64,000 bases of DNA from Gramella sp. Hel_I_59 (GTDB lineage Bacteria > Bacteroidota > Bacteroidia > Flavobacteriales > Flavobacteriaceae), in the NCBI RefSeq assembly GCF_006714895.1, contig NZ_VFME01000001.1:3100001-3164000 (forward strand). Reading direction: 5' to 3'. How positions within the stretch are numbered: position 1 is the stretch's first letter; each line of letters starts with the position of its first letter. The notes beneath the pieces are model-generated. The model worked only from the letters and a program-made list of their open reading frames with translations. It made no database searches and was not told the origin of the DNA. Below, piece by piece: positions 2,474-16,916 of this stretch. Made by a program: the position numbers and the translations under genes.

Positions 2474-3730
2474 TTAAACTATCATTCCTGCTGCAACGGT
2501 TTCATTAGTATTTTCATCTACCAGAATAATACTACCTGTATTTCTGTTATCTCTATAAGAATCGATCATCAATCTATGCGTAGTTCTGATCGTTACTCTA
2601 GCAATATCATTCATGGAAAGATCCTTGTTTTCCGTATTTCTATTATAAGTGTTGATATCAATCTTATAAACCACATCCTTGATCATGGCTCTCTGTTGAT
2701 TGGAAGTGTGCATCACGGTATATTTTGCTCTGGGCTTCGCAGCATCGTTATTCAGCCAACATAACATCACATCAAATTCCTGCTCTCCTTCCGGTTGATT
2801 ATTCTTCTTTACAATCATATCGCCGCGGCTTACATCAATATCATCTTCCAGAGTTATAGAAATAGACATTGGTGCAAAAGCTTCCTCAACCTCCTGTTCC
2901 CCGGTATTGATAGATTTGATTTTCGAGGTAAAGCCTGAGGGCAGTACGGCTACTTCATCACCCAATCTATAGATTCCGCTGGCCACTCTACCGGCATAGC
3001 CTCTGTAATCTCTATGCTCGTCACTTTGTGGTCTTAATACAGTTTGTACCGGGAACCGTGCATCGATCTTGTTAATATCACTACTAATATGCAGGGTTTC
3101 CAATATACTAAGTAGCGTTCCACCTCCATACCAACTCATGTTTTCGGAACGATTCACAACATTATCTCCCAGAAGGGCACTCATTGGAACAAAACGTACA
3201 TCTTTTACCAGCAGCTTGGAAGAAAACTCCTCGAACTGACCAATGATCTCATTATATCGTTCTTCTGAAAAATCTACCAAATCCATTTTATTGACACAAA
3301 CGATCAAATGAGGAATATTCAGAAGTGAAGCTATAAACGAATGTCTTTTGGTCTGCTCGATAACTCCATGCCTGGCATCTATTAAAATAAGAGCTGCATT
3401 CGCTGTTGATGCTCCAGTAACCATATTACGGGTATATTGAATATGACCCGGAGTATCTGCGATAATGAATTTTCTCTTAGGAGTGGTGAAATATCTGTAC
3501 GCTACATCGATGGTGATGCCCTGTTCTCTCTCATCCTTTAAGCCATCTGTGAACAATGCCAGGTCCACTCCTTCATGACCTTTTTTTGCACTGGTGTTGG
3601 TTACTGACTCTAACTGATCTTCAAATATAGATTTGGAATCATATAGCAGTCGGCCAATGAGGGTACTTTTCCCATCATCCACGCTTCCTGCCGTTGTAAA
3701 TCTTAGTAATTGATTGTTATTGATCTCCAT
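2474..3730 (-). CDS. cysN: Sulfate adenylyltransferase GTPase subunit
   Basis: GTPase partner of CysD. Together they make adenosine 5'-phosphosulfate (APS) from ATP and sulfate, with GTP hydrolysis driving the reaction. Seen in the 418-residue protein: the P-loop GSVDDGKST (residues 15-23), the G3 box DTPGH (92-96) and the G4 box NKMD (147-150), followed by EF-Tu-like beta-barrel domains. There is no fused CysC kinase domain; cysC is a separate gene upstream. It follows cysD with a 65-bp gap. The sugar-nucleotide neighbours point to sulfate activation for glycan sulfation rather than cysteine synthesis, which is inference. Confidence 0.96.
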   Translation of the reverse strand: MEINNNQLLRFTTAGSVDDGKSTLIGRLLYDSKSIFEDQLESVTNTSAKKGHEGVDLALFTDGLKDEREQGITIDVAYRYFTTPKRKFIIADTPGHIQYTRNMVTGASTANAALILIDARHGVIEQTKRHSFIASLLNIPHLIVCVNKMDLVDFSEERYNEIIGQFEEFSSKLLVKDVRFVPMSALLGDNVVNRSENMSWYGGGTLLSILETLHISSDINKIDARFPVQTVLRPQSDEHRDYRGYAGRVASGIYRLGDEVAVLPSGFTSKIKSINTGEQEVEEAFAPMSISITLEDDIDVSRGDMIVKKNNQPEGEQEFDVMLCWLNNDAAKPRAKYTVMHTSNQQRAMIKDVVYKIDINTYNRNTENKDLSMNDIARVTIRTTHRLMIDSYRDNRNTGSIILVDENTNETVAAGMIV

Positions 3731-3795
3731 TATAATATGCTCTTATATATTGTATTGCTAATTAAGCTTGCTGACTCTAAGTTGTGATCTATTAT

Positions 3796-4701
3796 CTAGA
3801 AGTACCCTTGTTTTTTACGGTCTTCCATAGCGGTCTCAGAACGCTTATCATCAGATCTATCTCCACGTTCTGTTTTCCTCATAGTAGAGACTTCATCGGC
3901 AATCTTTTCCAGCGTATCTGCGTCAGACTCTATTCCTCCGGTAATGGTAATATCACCAAGGGTTCTAAACCTTATTTTTTTCTTTTCAATAGTTTCTCCT
4001 TCTTCCAATTTCAGGTATTCTGATACCGGAATCCAGGAGTTACTTCTGAACACAACCTCTCTGTCATGTGCAAAGTATAATGATGGTATACTTATATTCT
4101 CTCTTTTAATATAGTTCCAGACATCCATCTCGGTCCAGTTACTAATTGGAAAAGCTCTGAAGTGTTCTCCTTCGAAATGTTTTCCGTTTAGCAAGTTCCA
4201 GAGTTCTGGCCGCTGGTTCTTAGGATCCCATTCTCCAAAATCATTTCTGTGTGAAAAGAAACGCTCCTTGGCTCGTGCCTTTTCTTCATCTCTTCTACCG
4301 CCACCTATAGCGCAGTCTACCTTGTTAGTCTCTATTGCATCCAAAAGTGTGGTGATCTGAAGCGCATTTCTTGTAGCGTTCTTTCCTTTTTCTTCCGCCA
4401 CACGACCCTGGTCAATACTATCCTGTACCGATCCTACGATCAATTTCACTCCTAGCTCACTGATTAGATCGTCTCTAAACTGAATGGTCTCTGGAAAGTT
4501 GTGACCGGTATCTACATGCATCAGTGCAAAAGGAATTTTACTTGGATAAAAAGCCTTCTTAGCCAAATGTGTTACTAAGATAGAATCCTTTCCTCCCGAA
4601 AACAGGATCACAGGATTTTCAAATTGTGCCCATACCTCCCGTAGGATATAAATAGCTTCAGATTCTAATTCGTCTAAGTAATTAAGATAGTACTTGCTCA
4701 T
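3796..4701 (-). CDS. cysD: Sulfate adenylyltransferase catalytic subunit
   Basis: ATP pyrophosphatase-type subunit that adenylylates sulfate to APS in complex with CysN. The 301-residue protein has the PP-loop SGGKDS at residues 35-40 and matches the family over its full length, ending in the usual RKKQGYF tail. Its ATG shares one base with the stop codon of cysC (overlap at 4701), a sign of translational coupling. It belongs to the cysC-cysD-cysN run. No PAPS reductase or sulfite reductase gene lies nearby. Confidence 0.97.
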   Translation of the reverse strand: MSKYYLNYLDELESEAIYILREVWAQFENPVILFSGGKDSILVTHLAKKAFYPSKIPFALMHVDTGHNFPETIQFRDDLISELGVKLIVGSVQDSIDQGRVAEEKGKNATRNALQITTLLDAIETNKVDCAIGGGRRDEEKARAKERFFSHRNDFGEWDPKNQRPELWNLLNGKHFEGEHFRAFPISNWTEMDVWNYIKRENISIPSLYFAHDREVVFRSNSWIPVSEYLKLEEGETIEKKKIRFRTLGDITITGGIESDADTLEKIADEVSTMRKTERGDRSDDKRSETAMEDRKKQGYF

Positions 4702-5297
4702 TATTTTGTTATTTCCAGTTCTTTTTCTAATAAATTAAGGATACGTTCTACTGAAACCCTAGCTTCTTCCTGATCTGTCCTGATCTCGATCGTAGGTGTT
4801 GCTGGGGGTTCGTAAGGTGCATCAATTCCTGTAAAGTTTTTGATCTCTCCAGCCCGGGCCTTTCTGTAAAGCCCTTTAACGTCACGCTTCTCGCAAATCT
4901 TTAAAGGCGTGTTCACAAAAACCTCTATAAAATCTTCTTCTCCTATAATTTCTCTTATAAAATCTCGATCGCTTTGCAAAGGAGAGATAAAGGAAGCAAT
5001 CACTACGCTCCCACTATCTACAAATAGTTTAGCCACCTCAGCGATACGTCTCAAATTCTCCTCTCGATCCTCACGACTAAAGCCTAGATTATTGTTAAGT
5101 CCCCCACGAATATTATCACCATCTAAGGAAAAGGTGTGTATTCCTTTTTCAAAGAGTTGTTGTTCCACCATATTTGCCAGGGTAGATTTCCCCGAACCTG
5201 ATAACCCGGTAAACCAAATCACAAAAGACTTATGACCTTTCATGGAATTACGAGACGCTCTGCTAACTTCAAATGTATGTGGAACAATATTATTCAT
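4701..5297 (-). CDS. cysC: Adenylylsulfate kinase
   Basis: Phosphorylates APS to PAPS, the universal sulfuryl donor. The 198-residue protein has the P-loop GLSGSGKST (residues 31-39), the DGDNIRGGLNNNLGFS substrate segment and the family's EVFVNTPLKICEKRDVKGLY block. The start overlaps the end of the DUF2061 gene by 8 bp, and the stop touches the cysD start, so the three genes look co-translated. As a free-standing kinase ahead of cysDN it would make PAPS for sulfotransferases. Confidence 0.96.
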   Translation of the reverse strand: MNNIVPHTFEVSRASRNSMKGHKSFVIWFTGLSGSGKSTLANMVEQQLFEKGIHTFSLDGDNIRGGLNNNLGFSREDREENLRRIAEVAKLFVDSGSVVIASFISPLQSDRDFIREIIGEEDFIEVFVNTPLKICEKRDVKGLYRKARAGEIKNFTGIDAPYEPPATPTIEIRTDQEEARVSVERILNLLEKELEITK

Positions 5298-5754: not shown

Positions 5755-6753
5755 CTATATTAAATGTGATGCAGAGATCTCAAGTTCCTGATAAACCTTT
5801 TTTACATCCTGGGAACATTTTTTACTCAGCACCAGATTAGCATCTTCTGTACAAACCAAAATAGAATTTTCAAGTCCTACAAAAGCAGTATAATTATTCG
5901 AACCTATTACCATATTGCCATGGCCATCTTTTTCATGTCCCTGCTCAATTAGATAATCATAGATAGCTTCAAAGCTTCCCATATCACTCCAGTCAAAACC
6001 TGACTTCACAACCTTTATTTTATCGCTCCTCTCCATAACTGCATAATCCACACTGATTGAAGGAATTTTTAAGGAGTCTTCCAGATTTAATGCACCTTCC
6101 TTATTATTAAACCAGACTTCCCTGGATGATTCGAAAACTTCTGGCTCATACTTCTTTAATTCCTCCAGAAACAAACCTGCTTTAAAACAGAACATTCCGC
6201 TATTCCAGAGAAATTTTCCGCTTTGCAGAAAGGTTTTTGCAGTAGCCAGATCTGGCTTTTCTCTAAATGAGCTTACGGTGTTGCCTTCAGTTTCAAGATA
6301 ACCATATCCAGTTTCCGGCTTTGTCGGCTGAATACCGAAGGTGACAATATTATCTTCTTTCGCCAATGCTACTGCTTCTTCCACTGCTTTATTGTAAGCT
6401 GCTCCTTCTACAATAATATGATCTGCCGGAGTAACAAGTAGAATATTTTCAGGATGTGCAGAAAAAGCTGCAAATGCTATTGCCGCCGCCGTGTTCCGTG
6501 GGGTTGCTTCAATAATGCTGGAGTGATCTATCGTCCTGGTTCTACTTAAGGTTTCCTCAGATAGATGATCGTTATCAACATTTCCAACGATAGTTAGGTC
6601 ATCGCAAAACTTTTGATTCCGTAGAATTGATAGCTCAAAGAGCGATTTCCCTCCAAACAGGTCTATATATTGTTTTGGTCTTGACTTTCGAGAGAGCGGC
6701 CATAGTCGGCTGCCAACTCCTCCAGTAAGTAATACATGAATAATTTTAGACAT
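5755..6753 (-). CDS. manC: Mannose-1-phosphate guanylyltransferase
   Basis: Makes GDP-mannose from mannose-1-phosphate and GTP, feeding Gmd and Fcl. The 332-residue protein has the nucleotidyltransferase signature GGVGSRLWPLSRKSRPKQ at residues 11-28 and no C-terminal phosphomannose isomerase domain, so it is the short, monofunctional form. It is the first gene of the left half of the locus on the minus strand, with DUF2061 and cysCDN directly behind it. Upstream lies a 673-bp region divergent from the lasso cluster. Confidence 0.95.
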   Translation of the reverse strand: MSKIIHVLLTGGVGSRLWPLSRKSRPKQYIDLFGGKSLFELSILRNQKFCDDLTIVGNVDNDHLSEETLSRTRTIDHSSIIEATPRNTAAAIAFAAFSAHPENILLVTPADHIIVEGAAYNKAVEEAVALAKEDNIVTFGIQPTKPETGYGYLETEGNTVSSFREKPDLATAKTFLQSGKFLWNSGMFCFKAGLFLEELKKYEPEVFESSREVWFNNKEGALNLEDSLKIPSISVDYAVMERSDKIKVVKSGFDWSDMGSFEAIYDYLIEQGHEKDGHGNMVIGSNNYTAFVGLENSILVCTEDANLVLSKKCSQDVKKVYQELEISASHLI

Positions 6754-7426
6754 AACATAACAGGGCTTCGCCTCCGTGAGTCACATATTGTAACTCTCGT
6801 AATAAAATTTTCGATAAAACCTGATTGAAATTCTTTAATCTGGTTAGACCAAAGACACATAAGTAGGGTTAGGCGGATCAGGTTGATTAGAACTTGCGAA
6901 ATTAATCCAGATAATCCATACTGTCAAATTGAAAACGTTAAAAATTTTAACTTTATCTGATCTCAATCGTTTTTAAATGGAACACCTAAACCCTTGATAA
7001 CCAATTATTACTAATAATGTCATAATCTCAAACTTCAGAAGTTAAGATAATTATCAAAGTCATGATTTATTGCTATTTAATTGATAATTCCTCAAATATT
7101 AAATTTTATTATTCTGAAGAGTTTAAGGTATTTTTATCAAGTTTACAACTTATATTTCTGTTCCCGGTGAGATTATTCCCTCATAGATAGTTCACAAGAG
7201 TTACATTTCTTAGTCTGGGAATAAATTTCATTTCTACTCTATCTACCATTTTATTAATTAATAATTGATTAAAAACAGCATCTCATATACCCAACATATA
7301 TCAAAACCTGCATACCAGGTCTTCTGTTTTGAGTAAATCATGCCTGAAAATGAATACTGTGTAAACAATTTATATTTTCTATGTTTGTGAATTATCTACA
7401 ATTAAAGCTAAAACTTATCTTATAAA
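6754..7426. other. Divergent intergenic region, no gene seen
   Basis: These 673 bp separate manC (leftward) from the lasso kinase gene (rightward). They are very AT-rich. No open frame longer than a few dozen codons looks real on either strand. The only clear signal is the -7 box at 7380-7387 for the rightward operon. No -7 match was found for manC. Confidence 0.6.
7380..7387 (+). promoter_or_regulatory. Candidate Bacteroidota -7 promoter box for the lasso operon
   Basis: TATGTTTG matches the flavobacterial TAnnTTTG consensus exactly and lies 39 bp before the TTG start of the kinase gene. No convincing TTG -33 element is seen at the expected distance, so the call rests on the -7 box and its position. 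Confidence 0.5.
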
Positions 7427-8299
7427 TTGAAAGATTCCATTACAGCCCCTCAACAGCATTATAAGTTCCCCTTAACCGATGTAAAAATCGAAATAAGCAA
7501 CAACATAATAGAGGTCGAGGATCCACTATATGTTGATGATTTCTATCGTGTAACTCAGAACGAATTTTTAATGGAAGTTGATGATGTAGGCACCTTCTAC
7601 GCTGCTAACGGCAATTATATATCCATGTGCATTGACCCACAAGCAAGTAGGGAGACTATTGAACTTTACTTAAACGGGTCAACCTACGGCGCAATTTTGC
7701 ATCAACGGAAAATTATGCCTATGCATGGCAGTTGTTTTGTTTATGGTAATAAGGGAATTATGCTTTGCGGGGATTCCGGAGCCGGAAAATCTTCGCTTAC
7801 CGCAGCATTTGTGTTGGATGATAATGAGTTTCTGACAGATGATATAACTCCAATAGTTATTAAGAATAATCAGGCTTTGATCTGGACTATGAGCGACCGT
7901 ATTAAATTATGGGAAGATAGTCTTAAGCAGCTTAGTGAAAGCAAGGAAAGTTTACGTAAAATTGACCCTGATACCGAAAAATTTTACTTTCCCTTAGCAT
8001 CGTATACTAAAAGTCATTTTGCCCTTGATCATATTTTATTATTGGATATTCACGACAATCCTTCTATAAGCATAAAGGAGGTGGAGGGAGTAGAAAAAAT
8101 TATGGCTTTAAGAAAGGAAATATATCGTCTGGAATATATGTTTGGGATGCCCGAAAACGAATCCTCATTTTTCAAAGATCTAACTGCTATGTGTAATTAC
8201 ACCAAAGTCACAAAACTATCCAGACCTAAGCAGATACCAATTCAAGAAACTCAACAGGCAATCGCGGACTACCTGGGCAAAATTTACAATTCAGATTAA
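7427..8299 (+). CDS. Lasso-peptide tailoring kinase, HPr kinase-like (PadeK type)
   Basis: This 290-residue protein resembles the kinase domain of HPr kinase/phosphorylase, with the P-loop GDSGAGKSS (residues 115-123), a preceding conserved His (MPMHGSC) and an acidic block DDNEFLTDDITP (131-142). In paeninodin-type lasso clusters such kinases phosphorylate the C-terminal Ser of the precursor. The precursor here also ends in Ser. No phosphocarrier HPr is encoded nearby, which argues against a role in carbon regulation. The start is TTG: the first in-frame ATG comes only about 49 codons later. The gene is first in the K-C-A unit, 9 bp before the cyclase gene. Confidence 0.85.
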   Translation: MKDSITAPQQHYKFPLTDVKIEISNNIIEVEDPLYVDDFYRVTQNEFLMEVDDVGTFYAANGNYISMCIDPQASRETIELYLNGSTYGAILHQRKIMPMHGSCFVYGNKGIMLCGDSGAGKSSLTAAFVLDDNEFLTDDITPIVIKNNQALIWTMSDRIKLWEDSLKQLSESKESLRKIDPDTEKFYFPLASYTKSHFALDHILLLDIHDNPSISIKEVEGVEKIMALRKEIYRLEYMFGMPENESSFFKDLTAMCNYTKVTKLSRPKQIPIQETQQAIADYLGKIYNSD

Positions 8300-8308
8300 G
8301 CTAAATTC

Positions 8309-10210
8309 ATGAGCGCCATATTTGGAATTATAGATTTTGAGGGCCGACCTATCCAGGATGAATGGATCACTTCCATGCAGAAAGATCTGGCTCATCGTGG
8401 ACCAGACCGGCAGGATATTTATCGCGAGGAATCCATGTTTTTCGGGCATATGCTATTACAGGTTACTCCGGAATCCATCTATGACTCCTCACCCTATGAA
8501 GAAGATGGCTTTGTAATCACAGCTTATGCGCGTCTTGATGAACGCGAGGCAATCATGGATAGAATTAATACGCATCCATCGGAACGCGAAACTATCACCG
8601 ACCCACTTTTACTGTTACGGTCTTATATCAAATTCGGAAAAGATTTTGTCAAAGATATTTATGGGGATTTTGCCTTCGCCATCTGGAACAAAGAAAAAAA
8701 AGAACTCTTTTGTGCCAGAGATCAAATGGGGGTAAAGCCATTTCTTTATTATTTTGAAAATAACAGATTTGTTTTTTCTACGGAATTAAAATCACTAGTA
8801 CAACTTCCTTTTGTAAAAACTGAAGTTGACCATCTACATTTGAGGGATGAGGCAATAGGCCTATGTGATGCTCCTACTAAAACTGCTTGGAAAAACATTT
8901 ACAGACTTAAAGCCGCCAGTTATCTTAAAATAGATAAATACCAGATTTTAATTTTTAAATACTGGGATTTAAATAAAAAAAATAAAAATTTAAATACGGA
9001 AGAAGATTGGGCTAAGACATTGAGAAGTTTACTTGAAAAAGTGATTGCAGACCAAACGAGGGTAATTAGCGAAGTTGGAGTTCCTCTAAGTGGAGGTTTA
9101 GATTCAAGCACCATTGCCTGTATTACTGCTAGAAAGTTTGCAAAAGAAAATAAGAAGATTATTTCTGCTTCGTCCGTCCTTGACAAAAATTATTGTGAGC
9201 CAAGCCTCCGTGATGAAATGGACTACATAAACGAAGTCATAAAGCAGGAAAAAAATATAGATCCTACTTTTATTTATCATTCTACACTAAAATATTCCTT
9301 AAAAGATCTTTTTTCCAAATTTGATGACAATTATGCCCCTGTTGTACATTCATATTATTTAGATGAGGCCATCTTTTCCAAATTTCAAGAAAAATCAGTG
9401 CGTCGAATGTTGTCCGGGGTATTGGGAGATATTACCACATCTAATAGTACTGTATCCCCACTACCCATTTTAATGCGAAATGGGAGTTTCTCCAAATTTT
9501 TCAGATTAAGTAGACGTTTCCGAAAAAATATGAATTTAAGTTATTATACTCTTATAACCAGATACATAACCGAACCAATTTTACCATTTTTCTTCCGCGA
9601 AATTGTTCACTCCGTTTTGAGAATTTATAAACCCTGGACTATTTTAAATTTCCCTCTGGAATTTCAGGATAGAGTAAAAAAAAGCCTGCAAAAAAGGATG
9701 AAAGATTTTTACAGAAAATTTTATTTGGATCAGTTTAATATTAAAAACAGTATTTGGCCAGAGGAATTTGAAAACTTTGGTGAAGAATATGATTGTAATT
9801 CTTCCCATCATCAAATTGAAATAACATATCCCTTATTAGACAGACGAATAATTGAATTCATGGTTCAGTTACCGGTTGAACATTATTATATGGGGGGATT
9901 AAAACGGGGGCTAATCAGAAAAGCAATGGAAAATATATTACCCGATAAGAATAGGTTAAGATTCGACAAATTGCCTTACTCACCTGCTTATAAACAAATA
10001 AATCAAAATTATCTCGCAAAGTTTAAGGAATCATTGAGCGAAAGTAACTACAATAATGCTTTAATAAGTAACGCAAAATTAAAAGAATCTCTTGAAAATA
10101 TCCTAATTTATGATAACTTAGCGTCAACTTATTGGGAGGTATTAGGGATTTATGGCTGGATACAGTTCGATAATTGGACAATTGAAAATAAAGAAAAATT
10201 AGTAAAATAG
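8309..10210 (+). CDS. Lasso-peptide cyclase, asparagine synthetase-like (C protein)
   Basis: This 633-residue asparagine synthetase homologue would adenylate the side-chain carboxylate of the core Asp and close the macrolactam onto the core N-terminus. The N-terminal glutaminase-like domain begins MSAIFGIIDFEG, with Ser in place of the catalytic Cys2, as is usual for lasso cyclases that do not use glutamine. The ATP pyrophosphatase loop SGGLDSS is at residues 261-267, and the C-terminal synthetase domain contains the YPLLDRRIIEFM segment seen across the family. It sits between the kinase gene (9-bp gap) and the precursor (10-bp gap). A housekeeping asparagine synthetase is unlikely because of Ser2 and the B1-B2 genes downstream. 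Confidence 0.9.
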   Translation: MSAIFGIIDFEGRPIQDEWITSMQKDLAHRGPDRQDIYREESMFFGHMLLQVTPESIYDSSPYEEDGFVITAYARLDEREAIMDRINTHPSERETITDPLLLLRSYIKFGKDFVKDIYGDFAFAIWNKEKKELFCARDQMGVKPFLYYFENNRFVFSTELKSLVQLPFVKTEVDHLHLRDEAIGLCDAPTKTAWKNIYRLKAASYLKIDKYQILIFKYWDLNKKNKNLNTEEDWAKTLRSLLEKVIADQTRVISEVGVPLSGGLDSSTIACITARKFAKENKKIISASSVLDKNYCEPSLRDEMDYINEVIKQEKNIDPTFIYHSTLKYSLKDLFSKFDDNYAPVVHSYYLDEAIFSKFQEKSVRRMLSGVLGDITTSNSTVSPLPILMRNGSFSKFFRLSRRFRKNMNLSYYTLITRYITEPILPFFFREIVHSVLRIYKPWTILNFPLEFQDRVKKSLQKRMKDFYRKFYLDQFNIKNSIWPEEFENFGEEYDCNSSHHQIEITYPLLDRRIIEFMVQLPVEHYYMGGLKRGLIRKAMENILPDKNRLRFDKLPYSPAYKQINQNYLAKFKESLSESNYNNALISNAKLKESLENILIYDNLASTYWEVLGIYGWIQFDNWTIENKEKLVK

Positions 10211-10220
10211 CACCTAAGTC

Positions 10221-10349
10221 ATGAAAGAAAATAATTCTAAAAAACAATGGACAAAACCCCAAATTAAGTCTGAATTGAAAATCAAGGAAACCCTTTCAAG
10301 GGGAGGAAAGGGCGGTGATGGTGGAGCTACAAACCAATCAAGGTCATGA
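10221..10349 (+). CDS. Lasso-peptide precursor (A protein), 42 residues
   Basis: A short gene starting 10 bp after the cyclase stop. The leader has the W-x2-P-x-I pattern (Trp10, Pro13, Ile15) bound by RRE proteins, then KIKETL with Thr24 at position -2, the hallmark Thr before a lasso core. The predicted core, residues 26-42, is SRGGKGGDGGATNQSRS. Asp8 of the core lies at the right distance for an 8-residue ring with Ser1. The tail ends in Ser, the expected target of the kinase. A strong terminator follows 24 bp downstream. Cleavage after Leu25 is inferred from the Thr(-2) rule. If cleavage fell at Gly3 or Gly4 instead, the ring would be too small. Confidence 0.85.
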   Translation: MKENNSKKQWTKPQIKSELKIKETLSRGGKGGDGGATNQSRS

Positions 10350-10373
10350 TTTTTTATGAATTTACGCTGAACT

Positions 10374-10405
10374 AATACTTACAATTTTTTATAAGTATTT
10401 TTTTT
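10374..10405 (+). terminator. Rho-independent terminator after the lasso precursor
   Basis: The 8-bp perfect stem AATACTTA/TAAGTATT (10374-10381 and 10392-10399) with a 10-nt loop runs into eight T. It closes the K-C-A unit and implies that B1-B2-N-D have their own promoter, or depend on read-through. Confidence 0.85.
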
Positions 10406-10729
10406 GGGAACTACTTTCAAAACAACCTTCAACCTAGATTTGGTTGTCCCAAAGGGAAAGGATTACAAGGTTTATGAAAAACCACAGGAATACATAATAC
10501 AGTTTCTTTTACTCAGCTTAGGCCTTGAAAAGAACTAATCATTAGTGTCTTAGTTGGGTTTTCGCTTACTCAGTTACCAAGTTTAAGAGCTATTTACTAT
10601 TACATCCTCTTTTCAAGGTTAAGATAACACCCTTCCAGTTCATAATCTTTTTAGGATATGAAATATTTTACAATATAAATTTGAAAGATATCTTATTGTC
10701 ATTGTCCTGAATTCGCTTACTTTTCGGTT

Positions 10730-11220
10730 TATTATGTAGTATAAACCCATCAAGTGCAAGATTTCTTGGGAATTTTTTAAATTTAGTTAATATATCCGCA
10801 CCAATAATACATGTAAACCACGATTACATTAATCTGATCTATTTACTTAAAATCTGGTGAATTTTTCATACATTTTTATTCGAACTTGATCTTTAAAGAC
10901 ATACTCAGCAGTAAAGCCATCATTTAGAATCTCCTTGTTCACAATTTAGAAAGTTCATTAGTAGATTTACTATTCACTTCTACCTTGGAGAAACTGCAAT
11001 AAACTTTCAAATCTAATTCTTCTTATTTAAAAGATTGTTGATTTCGAGTATGCTGTTGAACTTTTTATGCCAAATAAGTTTATTAATTTCGATTGAGTTC
11101 CTCGGCACAATATCTTAGTTATACTTCTCATATCTTTTTGGATTCAGATTTGAACTTCATTTAAATCTACTACCTCAATTTTGTTTAACGCATATCCGCA
11201 ATTATCCACTTAATTTTCAT
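10730..11220 (-). pseudogene. Possible decayed LytTR-type response regulator
   Basis: From an ATG at 11220 the minus strand reads KIKWIIAD, like the first strand of a receiver domain. After a frameshift it continues YALNKIEVVDLNEVQI. Further on, EYVFKDQVRIKM (about 10909-10874) and LTKFKKFPRNLALDGFI (about 10790-10740) resemble parts of a LytTR DNA-binding domain. The pieces are in the right order but separated by stops and frameshifts. The resemblance is by eye and weak; the region could also be unrelated AT-rich DNA. Confidence 0.3.
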
Positions 11221-11312
11221 AATCCTTACTATGTCGACTCTTCTATATCACGCTTTTTCAGGCATGGTATAGTTGTCTCGGCTTCGTTAATCAAGGAGAA
11301 CCTGTGTATTTC

Positions 11313-11340
11313 ATCGAGTATATATTGAGGTTATCGAGTA
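11313..11340. repeat. Two ATCGAGTA direct repeats 20 bp apart
   Basis: Exact copies of ATCGAGTA lie at 11313-11320 and 11333-11340, a start-to-start spacing of about two helical turns, 122 bp before the B1 start. They could be sites for a regulator that binds direct repeats. No regulator gene is intact nearby. Confidence 0.4.
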
Positions 11341-11461
11341 CTTCCGAATTTACACATAACAGTTAAATTTTTTACAATAGTTTAGTCAAAAGCTGTAAAA
11401 CCTCCGAATAGCTGGGGCCTTGTGCTTAGTTAAACATTTTTTAATTTTTACTCATACATAA

Positions 11462-11737
11462 ATGATAAATCAGGTAAATGATAAGGTACTTTCCAGCAAA
11501 ATCGGTAATGAGGCTGTTCTAATGTGTATGGAAGCCGAGTCTTACTACGGTCTTGATCCTATAGGAAGCAGAATCTGGCAATTATTAATAGAATCACCGA
11601 AAACTATTCAGGAAGTCATTGATGTACTTTTACAGGAATATGATGTAGATCAAGAAACCTGTAGCAGGGATGTTCATAGTTTTATTGATGAGATGATTTC
11701 GCGAAAGCTCATTCTTAATGAATCGATTGCAGCATGA
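11462..11737 (+). CDS. Lasso RRE protein (B1), PqqD-like
   Basis: A 91-residue PqqD-like RiPP recognition element, which binds the precursor leader and hands it to the peptidase and cyclase. It shows the typical order: short beta strands (KVLSSKIGNEAVLMCMEAESYYGLDPIGSRIWQLL, residues about 8-42) and then a winged-helix part. The ESYYGLDPIGSRIW segment is the family's most recognisable block. Its stop overlaps the B2 start (ATGA), so B1 and B2 are probably co-translated and act as a split B protein, as in other Gram-positive-like and Bacteroidota clusters. Confidence 0.9.
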   Translation: MINQVNDKVLSSKIGNEAVLMCMEAESYYGLDPIGSRIWQLLIESPKTIQEVIDVLLQEYDVDQETCSRDVHSFIDEMISRKLILNESIAA

Positions 11738-12162
11738 TAGGTTCATTTATACCGGCGAGGAAATTATCATTTTCAGAGATCACTCTACTTCCTGAAGCAA
11801 TATTACTCCTTTTTATATATCGCTTAAAAGTTAGTTATCAGGCTTCAAGGAAATGGATGCCAGCACCTGTTTCAGAAACTTCTCACAGCAGAGGTGAAGC
11901 TAAAATAGGAAAAGCCTTATTAATAGCTACCATAATTAATGGTCTGGAAAATCGTACCCCCTGGAAGAATACTTGTCTTGTCAAAGCACTTGCAACCCGA
12001 AAAATGCTTGAACGACGATCTTATGACAACACCTTACACATAGGAGTAACACCAACTCCTGACAAAAAGTTTAGAGCCCATGCCTGGTTATCTATAGGAG
12101 GTACTAATATTTTAGGAGGTGAACATCTGGATGGTTTCTTTGAAATATCCGGATTTCAATAG
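11734..12162 (+). CDS. Lasso leader peptidase (B2), transglutaminase-like
   Basis: A 142-residue cysteine protease of the transglutaminase-like lasso B2 family, which removes the leader. The nucleophile is likely Cys81 in PWKNTCLVKALATRKML, and the catalytic His is His116 in RAHAWLSIGG; these blocks are conserved in B2 proteins. The third catalytic residue cannot be assigned by eye. The start overlaps the B1 stop by 4 bp. Length is normal for the family. Confidence 0.9.
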   Translation: MIGSFIPARKLSFSEITLLPEAILLLFIYRLKVSYQASRKWMPAPVSETSHSRGEAKIGKALLIATIINGLENRTPWKNTCLVKALATRKMLERRSYDNTLHIGVTPTPDKKFRAHAWLSIGGTNILGGEHLDGFFEISGFQ

Positions 12163-12177
12163 ATAAACAAAAGAAAA

Positions 12178-13146
12178 TTGGCAAACCTTACTTTTCTAAA
12201 TCGTGAAGTTCTTCATCAACGTCACCGCTTATCTCATCAGCAGATCGATGCGCTACTAAATGAGAATCGAAGTAAGGATTATCTTCAGGAAAAATATCAT
12301 CTACTTTTTCAGGTAGGTGAATTCGACAAGATAACAGATGCTTTCCGAAAGTCTACGATCCCATTCACTCCATTAAAAGGCCCGATGCTATCTTACCGGC
12401 TTCACCAGGAAGCCAGTTACAGGTACTCTAATGATCTGGATCTATTGGTTTCGCCAAAAGATATTGAAAGATGTATTTCTATACTCGAACTGCATGGCTA
12501 CAAAACAGCTCTTTTCCCCTGGCCAGATAATTCAAAAAAAAGAAAAAGATTAATAAAACTGTCAAATCAAATATTGCTTTCAAACCCTGAAAACAATATT
12601 AACATTGAAATTCACTGGAAATTATTTAAATCCAGAGTTACTGATGATCGAACTCTTTCAGAAGTAATTAAATCAAATACCGGAAACCTAATATTTCAAA
12701 ATCGAAGCTTCCAGATTTTTGATAATGAACTGGAACTATTGTATTTAATTATTCACGGTGGGAAGCATGCCTGGTTTAGGTTAAAGTGGCTCGTTGATGT
12801 GAGAGATTTCTTAGCAAACATCACTTTTGACGAACATAAATTTGTGGAGCTGACTACCCAATTGAATGCGACCCGCATGGTAGCCCTCTGCAATTCAACC
12901 CTGGAAAAATACTTCCCTGAATCTTCTCTAGTACCCTGCTTACCTGAAACAGATATAGCAAAACTTTCTGATTTTGCGATCACACAAATCGAATATGAAG
13001 ACTATTATAGCAAATCATTTCTGGATCGAATTAAGACATATCTTTTTGAACTGAAATGCTTTCCAGGCTTCAGGTTTAAATTAAGTACTATTGCAATAAT
13101 ATTCTACGGAAAGTATTCCAAAGTGTTCGAGTTCTATCGCAACTGA
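12178..13146 (+). CDS. Nucleotidyltransferase family protein of the lasso cluster (PadeN-like)
   Basis: A 322-residue protein with the nucleotidyltransferase_5 pattern: TPLKGPML (around 64-71), then RYSNDLDLLV (82-91), with two metal-binding Asp residues at 86 and 88. Related genes occur with HPr-like kinases in paeninodin-type clusters and are suspected of tailoring the peptide, but their reaction is not established. A transfer onto the phosphorylated C-terminus is an attractive guess. It starts at TTG 15 bp after B2. The next in-frame ATG lies beyond the catalytic block, so TTG is favoured. Confidence 0.8.
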   Translation: MANLTFLNREVLHQRHRLSHQQIDALLNENRSKDYLQEKYHLLFQVGEFDKITDAFRKSTIPFTPLKGPMLSYRLHQEASYRYSNDLDLLVSPKDIERCISILELHGYKTALFPWPDNSKKRKRLIKLSNQILLSNPENNINIEIHWKLFKSRVTDDRTLSEVIKSNTGNLIFQNRSFQIFDNELELLYLIIHGGKHAWFRLKWLVDVRDFLANITFDEHKFVELTTQLNATRMVALCNSTLEKYFPESSLVPCLPETDIAKLSDFAITQIEYEDYYSKSFLDRIKTYLFELKCFPGFRFKLSTIAIIFYGKYSKVFEFYRN

Positions 13147-13198
13147 TTCTTTTTGTAATTTCCCTCGGAAGAATTTATTTTCAAGTATTCATTTCTTT

Positions 13199-14890
13199 AT
13201 GAAAATTGACCCATATTTTACTAAAAGCCTGAAAATGCTTTTAAATTTTCGTCCGGGAAAAATTCTACTTCTTTTTACTTTAACGCTTTTCCTTGGAGTA
13301 TTTTCCGGACTCTCGATTGTACTCCTGATACCACTCTTGCAATTATTAACTGCTGAAACCAGTGATAATCAGAATCCTATTGCAAAATTTTTTAAAGAGC
13401 TGGCAGAAAAGGTCAACTTTCAATTAAACCTGGAAACCATTCTTATAATTTACGTCCTGCTACTGTCGTTTATGGCAGTTTTGCAATTATGGAAAAGCTT
13501 GCTAGATGCCAGATATCAACAAAGGTTTATTTACGAAATACGTAACAGATTATTCCGGAAGATTATCAAGGCCGACTGGCAGTTATTAAATAATCGAAGC
13601 AAAACTGGTCACTTACAGGTTCTAAGTACCGAAATTCCCAATCTGGCTGATTATTTCTTTTTTATCATGCGGGTACTTACCGGTTTGATTATGGCAGGAT
13701 CTTACCTGGTTTGGGCAATGTTCGTCTCAAGTAAGTTTACGCTATTCATTTCTTTTATAGGAATACTGGTTTTCATACTGCTTCGTAAATTTATGTTCAG
13801 AGCTTTTGATCTAGGTGAGAGATTTCTGGATTCCTATAATCATCTTCTTAAATATATTGATGACTTCTGGACTACCGTAAAGATTGCTAAGGTCCATGGG
13901 TCTGAAGCATTTTATTACAAAAAATTTGAATCTGTTTCTTCATCCCTTCTAAAACTGGATATGAAGATGCAGAAAAACAGCGCTTACCCTACCTTTTTCT
14001 ATCGAATTTCCGGAATAATCGTCCTTACATTAGTAGTCTATTTAGGTTATAAATTCGATCTAATTCCTCTAACCTCATTTTTTATATTGATTATATTATT
14101 TTCAAAGGTTTACCCGCAGTTCACAACGATAAGTACCGATATCAATATTATAATAAGCAATTTCGCTTCCGTACGAATGGTGATGCAACTCGATGAAAAC
14201 TTTTCTGCTACAAACGTAGATTTTTCAACCCCCAAAAATGTAATTCGGTTACAAAATCAACTTCGAATTACAAATCTGAATTTTTCCTATGATAATGAAG
14301 AACTATTCCACGATTTTAGTGCTAGTATACCCGCGTTTTCTCTTACAGGAATCATTGGTGAATCAGGTAAAGGAAAAACGACCTTAATCGATTTGATCGC
14401 TGGTTTACAACAACAAAAATCTGGCGAAATAATGGTAGATGATGAGATACTTGAAGATGAAAACTTACAGAGTTGGAGACATCAAATTGGGTATCTACCT
14501 CAGGATGCTTTTTTTATAGATGGAACTTTACGCGAAAATCTAATTTGGGACAATCCTGGAAAAATATCAGATAAAGAGATTAGGTATACTTTATTGCAAG
14601 TACGAGGTTCACATCTTTTAGATCGCTTAGAAAACGGACTTGATGAAGTGATTGTGAATTACCAATTTCACTTCTCAGGAGGTGAAAGACAACGTCTTGC
14701 ACTCGCCCGGGTTCTATTAAGACAGCCGCAGATACTTCTGCTCGATGAAGCTACTTCATCTCTGGATGAAATTAGCGAAAAGCTAATTATGGAACTTCTG
14801 GTACAATTAAAGAGTGAGATCACTATTTTGTTCGTAACACACAGGCTTTCAATTTTACCTTTTTGTGACAAAGTTATTAAACTCAGGTAA
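13199..14890 (+). CDS. Lasso-peptide ABC exporter (D protein), fused permease-ATPase
   Basis: A 563-residue half-transporter: about six membrane segments in residues 1-310 and an ATPase domain with Walker A GESGKGKTT (387-395), signature FSGGERQRL (492-500) and Walker B LLLDEATSSLD. Such exporters end lasso clusters and give export and self-immunity. It lies 52 bp after the nucleotidyltransferase gene. No peptidase C39 domain is present, as expected since B2 removes the leader. It could in principle be a lipid flippase of the polysaccharide locus, but strand and spacing place it with the lasso genes. Confidence 0.88.
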   Translation: MKIDPYFTKSLKMLLNFRPGKILLLFTLTLFLGVFSGLSIVLLIPLLQLLTAETSDNQNPIAKFFKELAEKVNFQLNLETILIIYVLLLSFMAVLQLWKSLLDARYQQRFIYEIRNRLFRKIIKADWQLLNNRSKTGHLQVLSTEIPNLADYFFFIMRVLTGLIMAGSYLVWAMFVSSKFTLFISFIGILVFILLRKFMFRAFDLGERFLDSYNHLLKYIDDFWTTVKIAKVHGSEAFYYKKFESVSSSLLKLDMKMQKNSAYPTFFYRISGIIVLTLVVYLGYKFDLIPLTSFFILIILFSKVYPQFTTISTDINIIISNFASVRMVMQLDENFSATNVDFSTPKNVIRLQNQLRITNLNFSYDNEELFHDFSASIPAFSLTGIIGESGKGKTTLIDLIAGLQQQKSGEIMVDDEILEDENLQSWRHQIGYLPQDAFFIDGTLRENLIWDNPGKISDKEIRYTLLQVRGSHLLDRLENGLDEVIVNYQFHFSGGERQRLALARVLLRQPQILLLDEATSSLDEISEKLIMELLVQLKSEITILFVTHRLSILPFCDKVIKLR

Positions 14891-14940
14891 TTAAACGCTT
14901 GCTTGAAGATTATCAAAAGTGCTGGAAAATAACTGAAGAA

Positions 14941-14978
14941 TGAGGTATTCGGAAGTTAGTACCACTTCCAAATACTCA
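14941..14978. terminator. Hairpin between lasso exporter and rfbB
   Basis: Near-perfect arms TGAGGTATTCGGAAGT and ACTTCCAAATACTCA sit between two converging genes. There is no T-run, so it is a weak terminator candidate. Confidence 0.4.
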
Positions 14979-15027
14979 CAATCTATCACATGCCTTTCAT
15001 GACTAGCATTTATATAGGAAATTTATG

Positions 15028-16044
15028 CTACCTACTTAAATACCAAATTATAGTTTCTTTTAAAGCATCTTCAAATTCTGAATCTGCTTTCCAGTTCAAT
15101 TGAGACCTGATCTTACTGGCATCAATGGCGTACCGCTGATCATGCCCTGCTCTATCCTTTACAAAGGCAATCTGTTCACTATAGCTTCCGGAATCCTTCG
15201 GTTTAAGTTCATCCAGCAATTTACAGATCTTTTGAGCAAGCTCTATATTCTGCATTTCTGCGTCACCTCCAATATTATATACCTCACCAGCTTTAGCTTC
15301 CGCATAAACCAGACTGATCGCTTTTACATGATCCAGCACATATAACCAGTCACGCACATTCTTTCCGTTGCCATAGATAGGAATATTTTCACCGCTTATA
15401 GCCTTTCGAATTATCGTTGGAATCAGCTTTTCTTTATGCTGCTTTGGACCGTAATTATTGGAGCAGTTCGTAATGACCGTATTCATTCCATAAGTATGAT
15501 GGTAACTACGCACTACCATGTCTGAAGCAGCTTTACTTGCCGAATAAGGAGAGTTCGGAGCATAGGGAGTTTCTTCAGTAAAATACCCGGTATTACCAAG
15601 ACTACCATACACTTCATCTGTGGAAATATGGTGGAATTTGCAATTATTATATTCTTCCCTGTATTCAAACGGAGTTTTCATCCAGGTCTTAAAGGCTACA
15701 TCCAGCAGGTTAAAAGTTCCGTTTACATTAGTTTCGATAAAAACACCTGGATTGCTAATAGAATTATCTACATGAGATTCCGCAGCAAAATGTATAACTC
15801 CCTGGATATGATGATCCTGGAAGATCTTTTCAATCAAGTCACGGTTGCGGATGTCACCTTCTATAAAACTATAGCGAGGGTTGGATTCCTCTTCGCTAAG
15901 ATTCTCCAGATCACCGGCATAGGTAAGCGCATCGAGATTAATCATATGCTGTTCCGGAAATTGCTCCAGGTAATAAGGTATAAAATTGGAACCTATAAAA
16001 CCTGCACCACCGGTAACCAGGATCGTTTTGTTTAGATCGTTCAT
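15028..16044 (-). CDS. rfbB: dTDP-glucose 4,6-dehydratase
   Basis: Converts dTDP-glucose to dTDP-4-keto-6-deoxyglucose, the entry to rhamnose and amino-deoxy sugars. The 338-residue protein has [14 protein letters not shown] (residues 9-22), the active-site [10 protein letters not shown] block and the Tyr-x3-Lys in [12 protein letters not shown]. It overlaps the end of rfbA by 4 bp. The later steps to rhamnose (RfbC, RfbD) are not in the window. Confidence 0.96.
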
Positions 16045-16916
16045 TGTCCTGCTCTCTTTAATAAATATTCACCATAGGATGATTTCCCCAGTTTTCCTGC
16101 AAGTTGCACCAGATCCTGCTTGTTTATATAGCCTTTTTCATAAGCGATCTCTTCCAGGCAGGCTACTTTGAGTCCCTGTCTTTTTTCTAGGGTATGAATA
16201 AAATTACCTGCTTCGAGCATCGATTCATGGGTTCCTGTATCCAGCCAGGCATAACCCCTATGCATAATCTCCATTTTAAGATTACGATCATCAAGGTATG
16301 ACTGTATCACAGAAGTGATCTCCAGTTCCCCACGTTTGCTAGGTTTCACATTCTTAGCAACTTCGATAACCGAATTTGGGAAAAAGTACAGACCTACAAT
16401 CGCATAATTTGATTTTGGTAATTCTGGCTTCTCTTCTACGCTTAGAACGTTCCCTTCCGCATCAAATTCTGCCACCCCATACCTGGAAGGCTCGTTTACA
16501 TAGTATCCAAAGACTCCAGTTTTCTGCTCCTGTTCTACCGTAGCGACCGACTTCCGAAGTAAACTTGTAAATCCATGTCCGTAAAAAATATTATCTCCCA
16601 GAATTAAAGCAACGTCATCACCATCTATAAATTCTTCCCCTATAATAAAAGCCTGCGCTAGACCATCTGGTGATTCCTGTACCGCATATTGAAAGTTCAT
16701 GCCAAGATCATTCCCATCACCCAGCAGTTTTTCAAAATTACTTCTGTCCTGTGGTGTCGTAATAATCAGAATTTCCCTGATACCGGCAAGCATTAATACT
16801 GAAAGTGGATAGTAGATCATTGGCTTATCATAAACATTCAGCAACTGCTTGGACACTCCTTTAGTAATAGGATATAATCGGGTACCTGAACCTCCGGCAA
16901 GAATAATTCCTTTCAT
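16041..16916 (-). CDS. rfbA: Glucose-1-phosphate thymidylyltransferase
   Basis: Makes dTDP-glucose from glucose-1-phosphate and dTTP. The 291-residue protein has the signature [20 protein letters not shown] (residues 3-22) followed by [17 protein letters not shown], and the usual full length. It overlaps rfbB by 4 bp and follows cysQ with a 35-bp gap. Confidence 0.97.

Follow-up and report, generated by a model that had tools for sequence, protein, structure and literature searches.

Analysis of a seemingly intact lasso-peptide gene set in Gramella sp. Hel_I_59 with predicted tailoring of the C-terminal serine

Background

The closest described systems are lasso peptides tailored by a kinase. 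The accessible text of a review (PMC9266682) describes the C-terminal Ser of the precursor as the target of the kinase PadeK in paeninodin, and reports for pseudomycoidin that PsmN puts a hexose on the phosphorylated Ser, an activity assigned through gene knock-outs. In the available part of another study (PMC10368454), BsfB1 aids the kinase BsfK acting on the precursor. For Bacteroidota, a predicted lasso cluster in Amoebophilus (abridged source, PMC8831229) has been described, and the accessible part of PMC7533575 calls Bacteroidetes an underexplored source, while the word lasso does not occur in the accessible part of a Bacteroidetes survey (PMC9248904). According to the accessible text of PMC9576775, the refactoring of nine lasso clusters gave two products, from Bacillus and Streptacidiphilus. 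No characterised Bacteroidota lasso product was found in the texts consulted, which leave most subscription papers outside and give no proof of absence.

A preliminary description of the locus had considered a Bacteroidota product to be of interest. This stands in so far as the texts consulted described no characterised product, but kinase-bearing lasso loci are common in the genomes of this phylum, and their occurrence there is in itself nothing new. Among the best 80 of 456 cyclase relatives, 12 loci came from Chitinophaga and Mucilaginibacter, and 10 of these had a kinase gene near the peptidase gene B2 and the cyclase gene C. What the locus adds is a well-bounded cluster whose core can be predicted firmly, in a phylum for which predicted lasso clusters were encountered.

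Cluster layout and genomic setting

The window (the whole stretch of 64,000 nucleotides analysed) contains a real, seemingly intact lasso-peptide gene set at 7427-14890. An ORF check of the window showed that all seven genes of the preliminary description were open and full length on the + strand, in the order K-C-A-spacer-B1-B2-N-D, with domains that fit. A gap of 1,112 bases between A and B1 was missing from that description. The features are listed below with their evidence.

6952-15047, no strand: stretch with no counterpart between manC and rfbB in congener G793 (blastn)
7427-8299, + strand: K, HPr-kinase-like peptide kinase, 290 aa, TTG start at 7427 (PF07475, motif residues, Algibacter K)
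8309-10210, + strand: C, lasso macrolactam synthetase, asparagine-synthetase-like, 633 aa (PF00733, NF033535, SGGLDS)
10221-10349, + strand: A, precursor, 42 aa, with leader 1-25 and predicted core SRGGKGGDGGATNQSRS at 26-42 (nine comparable precursors; single pattern match)
10350-11461, no strand: A-B1 spacer, 1,112 bases, gene-free (GC 0.302; place of gene X in some sister clusters)
10374-10405, + strand: A+T-rich terminator-like hairpin, then a T run, just 3' of A (fold against shuffles)
11462-11737, + strand: B1, RRE (PqqD-like) leader-binding protein, 91 aa (PqqD; TbiB1 5v1u)
11734-12162, + strand: B2, leader peptidase, 142 aa (NF033537; Cys81 and His116)
12178-13146, + strand: N, NTP_transf_5 nucleotidyltransferase-like tailoring protein, 322 aa, TTG start at 12178 (PF14907)
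13199-14890, + strand: D, ABC exporter, 563 aa (ABC_tran, ABC_membrane; Algibacter D)
16041-16916: rfbA (read directly from the sequence)

A search of the 3.44-Mb host genome found no second lasso cluster and only a single B2, and Rfam gave zero matches to structured RNA in 6700-15100 at E <= 1.

The flanking genes manC and rfbB were recognised by their domains. In blastn, homology to congener G793 (locus L091) stopped at window position 6951 (70%) and restarted at 15048 (92%), with 156 bases between in G793, and homology to congener G777 (L092) stopped at 6954 and restarted at 15196. The distance between the manC and rfbB matches was 345 bases in G793 and 329 in G777. These breaks show that the cluster fills an 8.1-kb stretch in a surface-sugar locus and is absent from both congeners. 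At the thresholds used, manC and rfbB were both present in three congeners, the third being G786, where the gap between them measured 3.8 kb (contig C17, 492862-496615); C and D were not found in G786, so the intervening DNA is not this cluster. A non-coding segment upstream of manC (window 6754-6951, GGCTTCGCC...GTGAGTC...) was recognisable in G793 and G777, and had no Rfam match.

Of the 24 genomes in the genus, only the window's own had C (at E 1e-40) or D (at E 1e-100). The cyclase was found at E 1e-40 in 4 of 397 genomes of the family (window's own counted), which we take to be that of Algibacter (Flavobacteriaceae); of the three other cyclases, Algibacter's alone was close (55%, the remainder 29%). 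The Bacteroidota origin is supported by this comparison with relatives. Of the 456 confirmed cyclase relatives the best 80 were taken as loci, and the ten nearest (L008-L017) contained C in all 10, K in 9 and N in 8. K was missing from L015, a contig of 3.3 kb, and N from L008 and L010, where the contigs end soon after C or after the extra gene X described below.

Precursor, core and ring

The precursor A has the leader motif WTKPQI, Thr at position -2 and Asp at core position 8. It was compared with eight precursors from the nearest loci and a fused one in protein P0003, giving ten sequences of the near clade only. The relatives were reached by scanning the cyclase neighbourhoods of 9 of the 80 loci (L008-L014, L016 and L017); L015, whose contig ends inside C, and L018-L087 were left out of the extraction. 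A precursor-like ORF occurred 3' of C in 8 of the 9 scanned loci, the exception being L017, where the contig ends inside C and the scanned stretch lies before K. In all ten precursors the leader carries W..P.I and ends at the cut in Thr-Leu or Thr-Tyr, with a Trp-to-cut distance of 16 residues. An Asp occupies core position 8 or 9, and every core ends in Ser. The scripted cut agreed in nine of the ten; in L016 it fell at an earlier Thr-Leu, and the second Thr-Leu, chosen by eye, gave equal spacing and Asp9. The closest core differs from SRGGKGGDGGATNQSRS at 2 of 17 positions; the core of P0003 reads SRGGKGSDGGAVNQSRS.

Because ten precursors have a common cut, spacing and ring Asp, the core boundaries and ring proposed earlier are well supported, and SRGGKGGDGGATNQSRS closed by a Ser1-Asp8 ring fits the aligned sequences best. 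Both the boundaries and Asp8 as the ring residue hold against the nine relatives, with Thr-2 conserved in the leader and Asp8 lying within ring positions 7-9. The neutral lactam mass was computed as 1572.735 Da, which reproduces the predicted value near 1572.74 Da.

In six frames of the 64-kb window, the leader-plus-core pattern had one match, at A, and none in the spacer. The pattern was fitted to the clade, so the single match tests for a second precursor and is not independent proof; the independent support for A is the presence of conserved precursors adjoining related cyclases. A matched no NCBIfam precursor family at E up to 1 and no Pfam family, and a protein search with A returned only itself.

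The cyclase ORF of P0003 reads without a stop into a full precursor, as a C-A fusion, an internal translation start or a sequencing slip would give. In L090, a lasso-type locus, a precursor-like ORF from 9802 ends in YATPVLKHYGSVQKLTFGMGSGGGDGMSTMMDV just 5' of X, with a core that lacks the terminal Ser.

Cyclase, leader-binding protein, peptidase and exporter

C matched Asn_synthase (PF00733) at 84.5 bits (cut-off 21) and GATase_7 at 69 bits in Pfam, while its score of 373.8 bits on the NCBIfam lasso cyclase model NF033535 was under the cut-off of 525. Its classification as a lasso cyclase comes from the Pfam domain and the gene context, not from NF033535. Solved structures matching C were asparagine synthetases and a hydroxyamidotransferase. 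The ATP loop SGGLDS (261-266) and Ser2 were invariant in all 26 aligned cyclases; residue 2 is Cys in active amidotransferases, as against Ser in C. The N-terminal 170 residues (amidotransferase-like, with Ser at the nucleophile position) were far more conserved than the remainder, and the values for Christiangramia protein P0051 were 88% over the N-terminal part and 32% at 291-500. This conservation suggests, at the level of sequence, either a fixed docking function or swapping among cyclases. Archaeal cyclase relatives were also observed in L020 (Natronococcus pandeyae), with B1-, B2-, K- and N-like genes as neighbours, and in P0119 (Methanobacterium alcaliphilum).

B1 scored 69.1 bits on Pfam PqqD, over the cut-off, and 73.5 bits on NCBIfam NF033536, under the cut-off of 80; its closest solved structure was the lasso protein TbiB1 (5v1u, E 2.9e-16). 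B2 scored 71.7 bits on Pfam Transglut_core3 and 69.6 bits on NCBIfam NF033537 (lasso_biosyn_B2), over the cut-off of 33, and matched no solved structure up to E 1. Its Cys81 and His116 aligned with Cys and His in all 50 B2 sequences (window counted), which places two of the three triad residues. D scored 106.4 bits on ABC_tran and 31.4 bits on ABC_membrane in Pfam.

Kinase, nucleotidyltransferase-like protein and tail modification

K scored 25.8 bits (E 8.6e-6) on Pfam Hpr_kinase_C (PF07475), under the curated 33.3. It carries the His-Lys-Asp-Asp motif of kinase-tailored lasso peptides (H100, K121, D138 and D139), and its residues H100, G115, G118, G120, K121, S122, D138 and D139 match the spacing of the BsfK motif as given in the accessible text of PMC10368454. 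According to the same text, BsfK acts on Ser3 with this motif, so the motif by itself does not fix the site. Ser17 is the likeliest phosphate site in the alignment, being the sole core hydroxyl residue kept in all ten precursors, with position 1 occupied by Gly or Ala in five; Ser1, Thr12 and Ser15 are the other candidates.

N matched PF14907 at 133.1 bits (cut-off 31.2) and no NCBIfam family, and related N proteins occur in other kinase-bearing lasso loci. The earlier assignment to the paeninodin type agrees with the kinase and the C-terminal Ser, but N is present too, which brings pseudomycoidin closer than paeninodin alone. With K and N together, pseudomycoidin is the nearest characterised counterpart, and by analogy a product bearing phosphate and hexose (1814.754 Da) is an expected possibility.

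The A-B1 spacer and gene X of sister clusters

The cluster had been called complete, which applies to the known gene set but not to the extra gene X found 3' of A in four of the eight sister clusters with the A-side scanned and absent from the window. X lies at 10286-11329 in the Algibacter locus (L011), with relatives in L010, L013, L016, L090, L101 and L102. Seven distinct loci were inspected, four of them found through the cyclase, and X adjoined lasso genes in six. The protein has about 350 residues, with eight invariant Cys in 20 aligned sequences, and matched no family in Pfam or NCBIfam. Its C-terminal domain (270-348) is predicted to resemble RiPP recognition elements (RREs). The X profile gave no significant match to the B1 profile and no match by sequence to solved structures, so the putative RRE assignment comes from the predicted structure. 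The sister clusters with X and the window without it form a natural with/without comparison, and Algibacter could show what X does.

The folding of 10350-10420 gave a hairpin of -7.8 kcal/mol (shuffle mean -3.48, z -2.57, 3 of 200 shuffles as good). The terminator scan, which requires G-C pairs, did not list this hairpin (10374-10405). With the spacer and terminator-like hairpin 3' of A, joint expression of A with B1-B2-N-D may be lacking.

A remnant of X in the spacer was sought by tblastn, by six-frame profile search and by frameshift-tolerant alignment against shuffles, and nothing firm was obtained. The best alignment, to the X C-terminus, scored 44 (shuffle mean 34.8, 8 of 200 shuffles as high; not significant), and among the 194 shuffles that gave any hit, one equalled the tblastn bit score. 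In the positive control, copies of the L010 X with half of the bases redrawn and 2% indels scored 50-186 in five trials against a profile of the other three X, compared with a shuffle maximum of 47.25 for the window spacer. The Gillisia MAG L014 also has a gene-free A-B1 spacer (3530-4734), both spacers being 1.1-1.2 kb. The L014 spacer scored at best 34.0 against X (shuffle mean 36.6), and the two spacers showed no significant likeness to each other. Among 299 family genomes, the spacer DNA (query 10410-11440) had, apart from itself, weak matches in 14, and these were 26-55 bases long.

Proposed product and alternative explanations

The favoured explanation, with a probability of about 0.86, is that the locus is a lasso-peptide biosynthetic cluster that tailors the C-terminal Ser, as its sequence suggests. 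The observed genes and their order, the motifs, the cut site, the ring Asp and the terminal Ser suggest, by analogy with known systems, the following chemical steps to a ringed, threaded and tailored product. B1 would hold the leader of A and assist K, which would act before cleavage and phosphorylate the last Ser of the precursor. B2 would cut after Thr-Leu, and C would activate Asp8 with ATP and join it to the Ser1 amino group around the tail; the ring would then have 8 residues and the tail 9. N would modify the phosphate further, probably with a hexose as reported for PsmN, and D would export the product. Reservations include that C, B1 and K scored under curated cut-offs and that A matched no precursor family.

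The same enzymes could make the macrolactam while the product stays an unthreaded branched-cyclic peptide, its Gly-rich core having no bulky plugs. The tail GGATNQSRS is one of 7 among the 10 compared that lack F, W, Y and H, so a clear steric lock is missing. Nevertheless, the clade retains C, B1 and B2, the set dedicated to threaded lasso peptides, and Arg, Lys, Gln or a modified Ser could act as plugs, with Arg16 and a modified Ser17 as the candidates for holding the thread here; an unthreaded product is considered very unlikely. A partly decayed or silent cluster, having lost X and kept the spacer, with B1-B2-N-D perhaps poorly expressed, would account for the 1,112-base spacer where X sits elsewhere, for the terminator-like hairpin and for the faint likeness of the spacer to the X C-terminus. 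That likeness was not significant, however, none of the seven genes is interrupted or truncated, and Gillisia L014 has K, C, A, B1, B2, N and D despite its 1.2-kb spacer. L009 and L012 have no X and a short A-B1 distance, so X is not always needed, and decay is judged quite unlikely.

N could also be a true nucleotidyltransferase, so that the tail phosphate bears a nucleotide and not a hexose. The family name of PF14907 speaks for this, and the accessible part of the review (PMC9266682) leaves the PsmN question undecided; the hexose carried by pseudomycoidin and assigned to PsmN by the knock-outs in the same text speaks against it, and the nucleotide is regarded as unlikely.

For the favoured explanation, that is a threaded and tailored lasso peptide, a further proposal goes beyond the window and is offered as a long shot: the phosphorylated, perhaps hexosylated C-terminal Ser of the clade would be the lock on a Gly-rich, aromatic-free thread, making the kinase structural and not decorative, and X, with its Cys-cluster domain and RRE, would be a tailoring protein of the sister clusters. 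The ten aligned precursors provide a basis to test the roles of the C-terminal phosphate and of N, and the locking of the knot by the tail mark.

Comparison with known systems

Among the predicted clusters, that of Algibacter mikhailovii (NZ_BMWZ01000002.1) agrees with the window in gene order (K, C, A, B1, B2, N, D), with identities of 61% (K), 54% (C), 53% (B1), 56% (B2), 56% (N) and 68% (D). It differs in its core, GGPIKNGKDAANKTKS with Asp9, and in having X between A and B1.

The Bradymonas Bsf cluster shares the spacing of the kinase motif, and there, in the accessible text of PMC10368454, the precursor is the kinase substrate and B1 helps. BsfK acts on Ser3 and the Bsf leader has Ile-2, whereas the window has Thr-2 and a conserved C-terminal Ser. 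The leader Trp of the window stands in place of Tyr in the YxxPxL motif of that text.

Paeninodin (Paenibacillus dendritiformis; PadeK) is likewise kinase-tailored, with the C-terminal Ser and the His-Lys-Asp-Asp motif (accessible part of PMC9266682), but the window has N in addition and a precursor without an NCBIfam match. Pseudomycoidin (Bacillus pseudomycoides, psm) shares, in the same source, the HPr-like kinase, the nucleotidyltransferase-like N and the modified C-terminal Ser, while the window has a different, Gly-rich core of 17 residues. The comparison of gene order covers Bacillus-type loci other than psm itself; most of these have the order C-K-B1-B2-N-D, and their cyclases share 24-29% identity with that of the window. 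In both gene content and logic the cluster follows the known kinase-tailored lasso peptides, and it is therefore a further member of this group and not a novel class.
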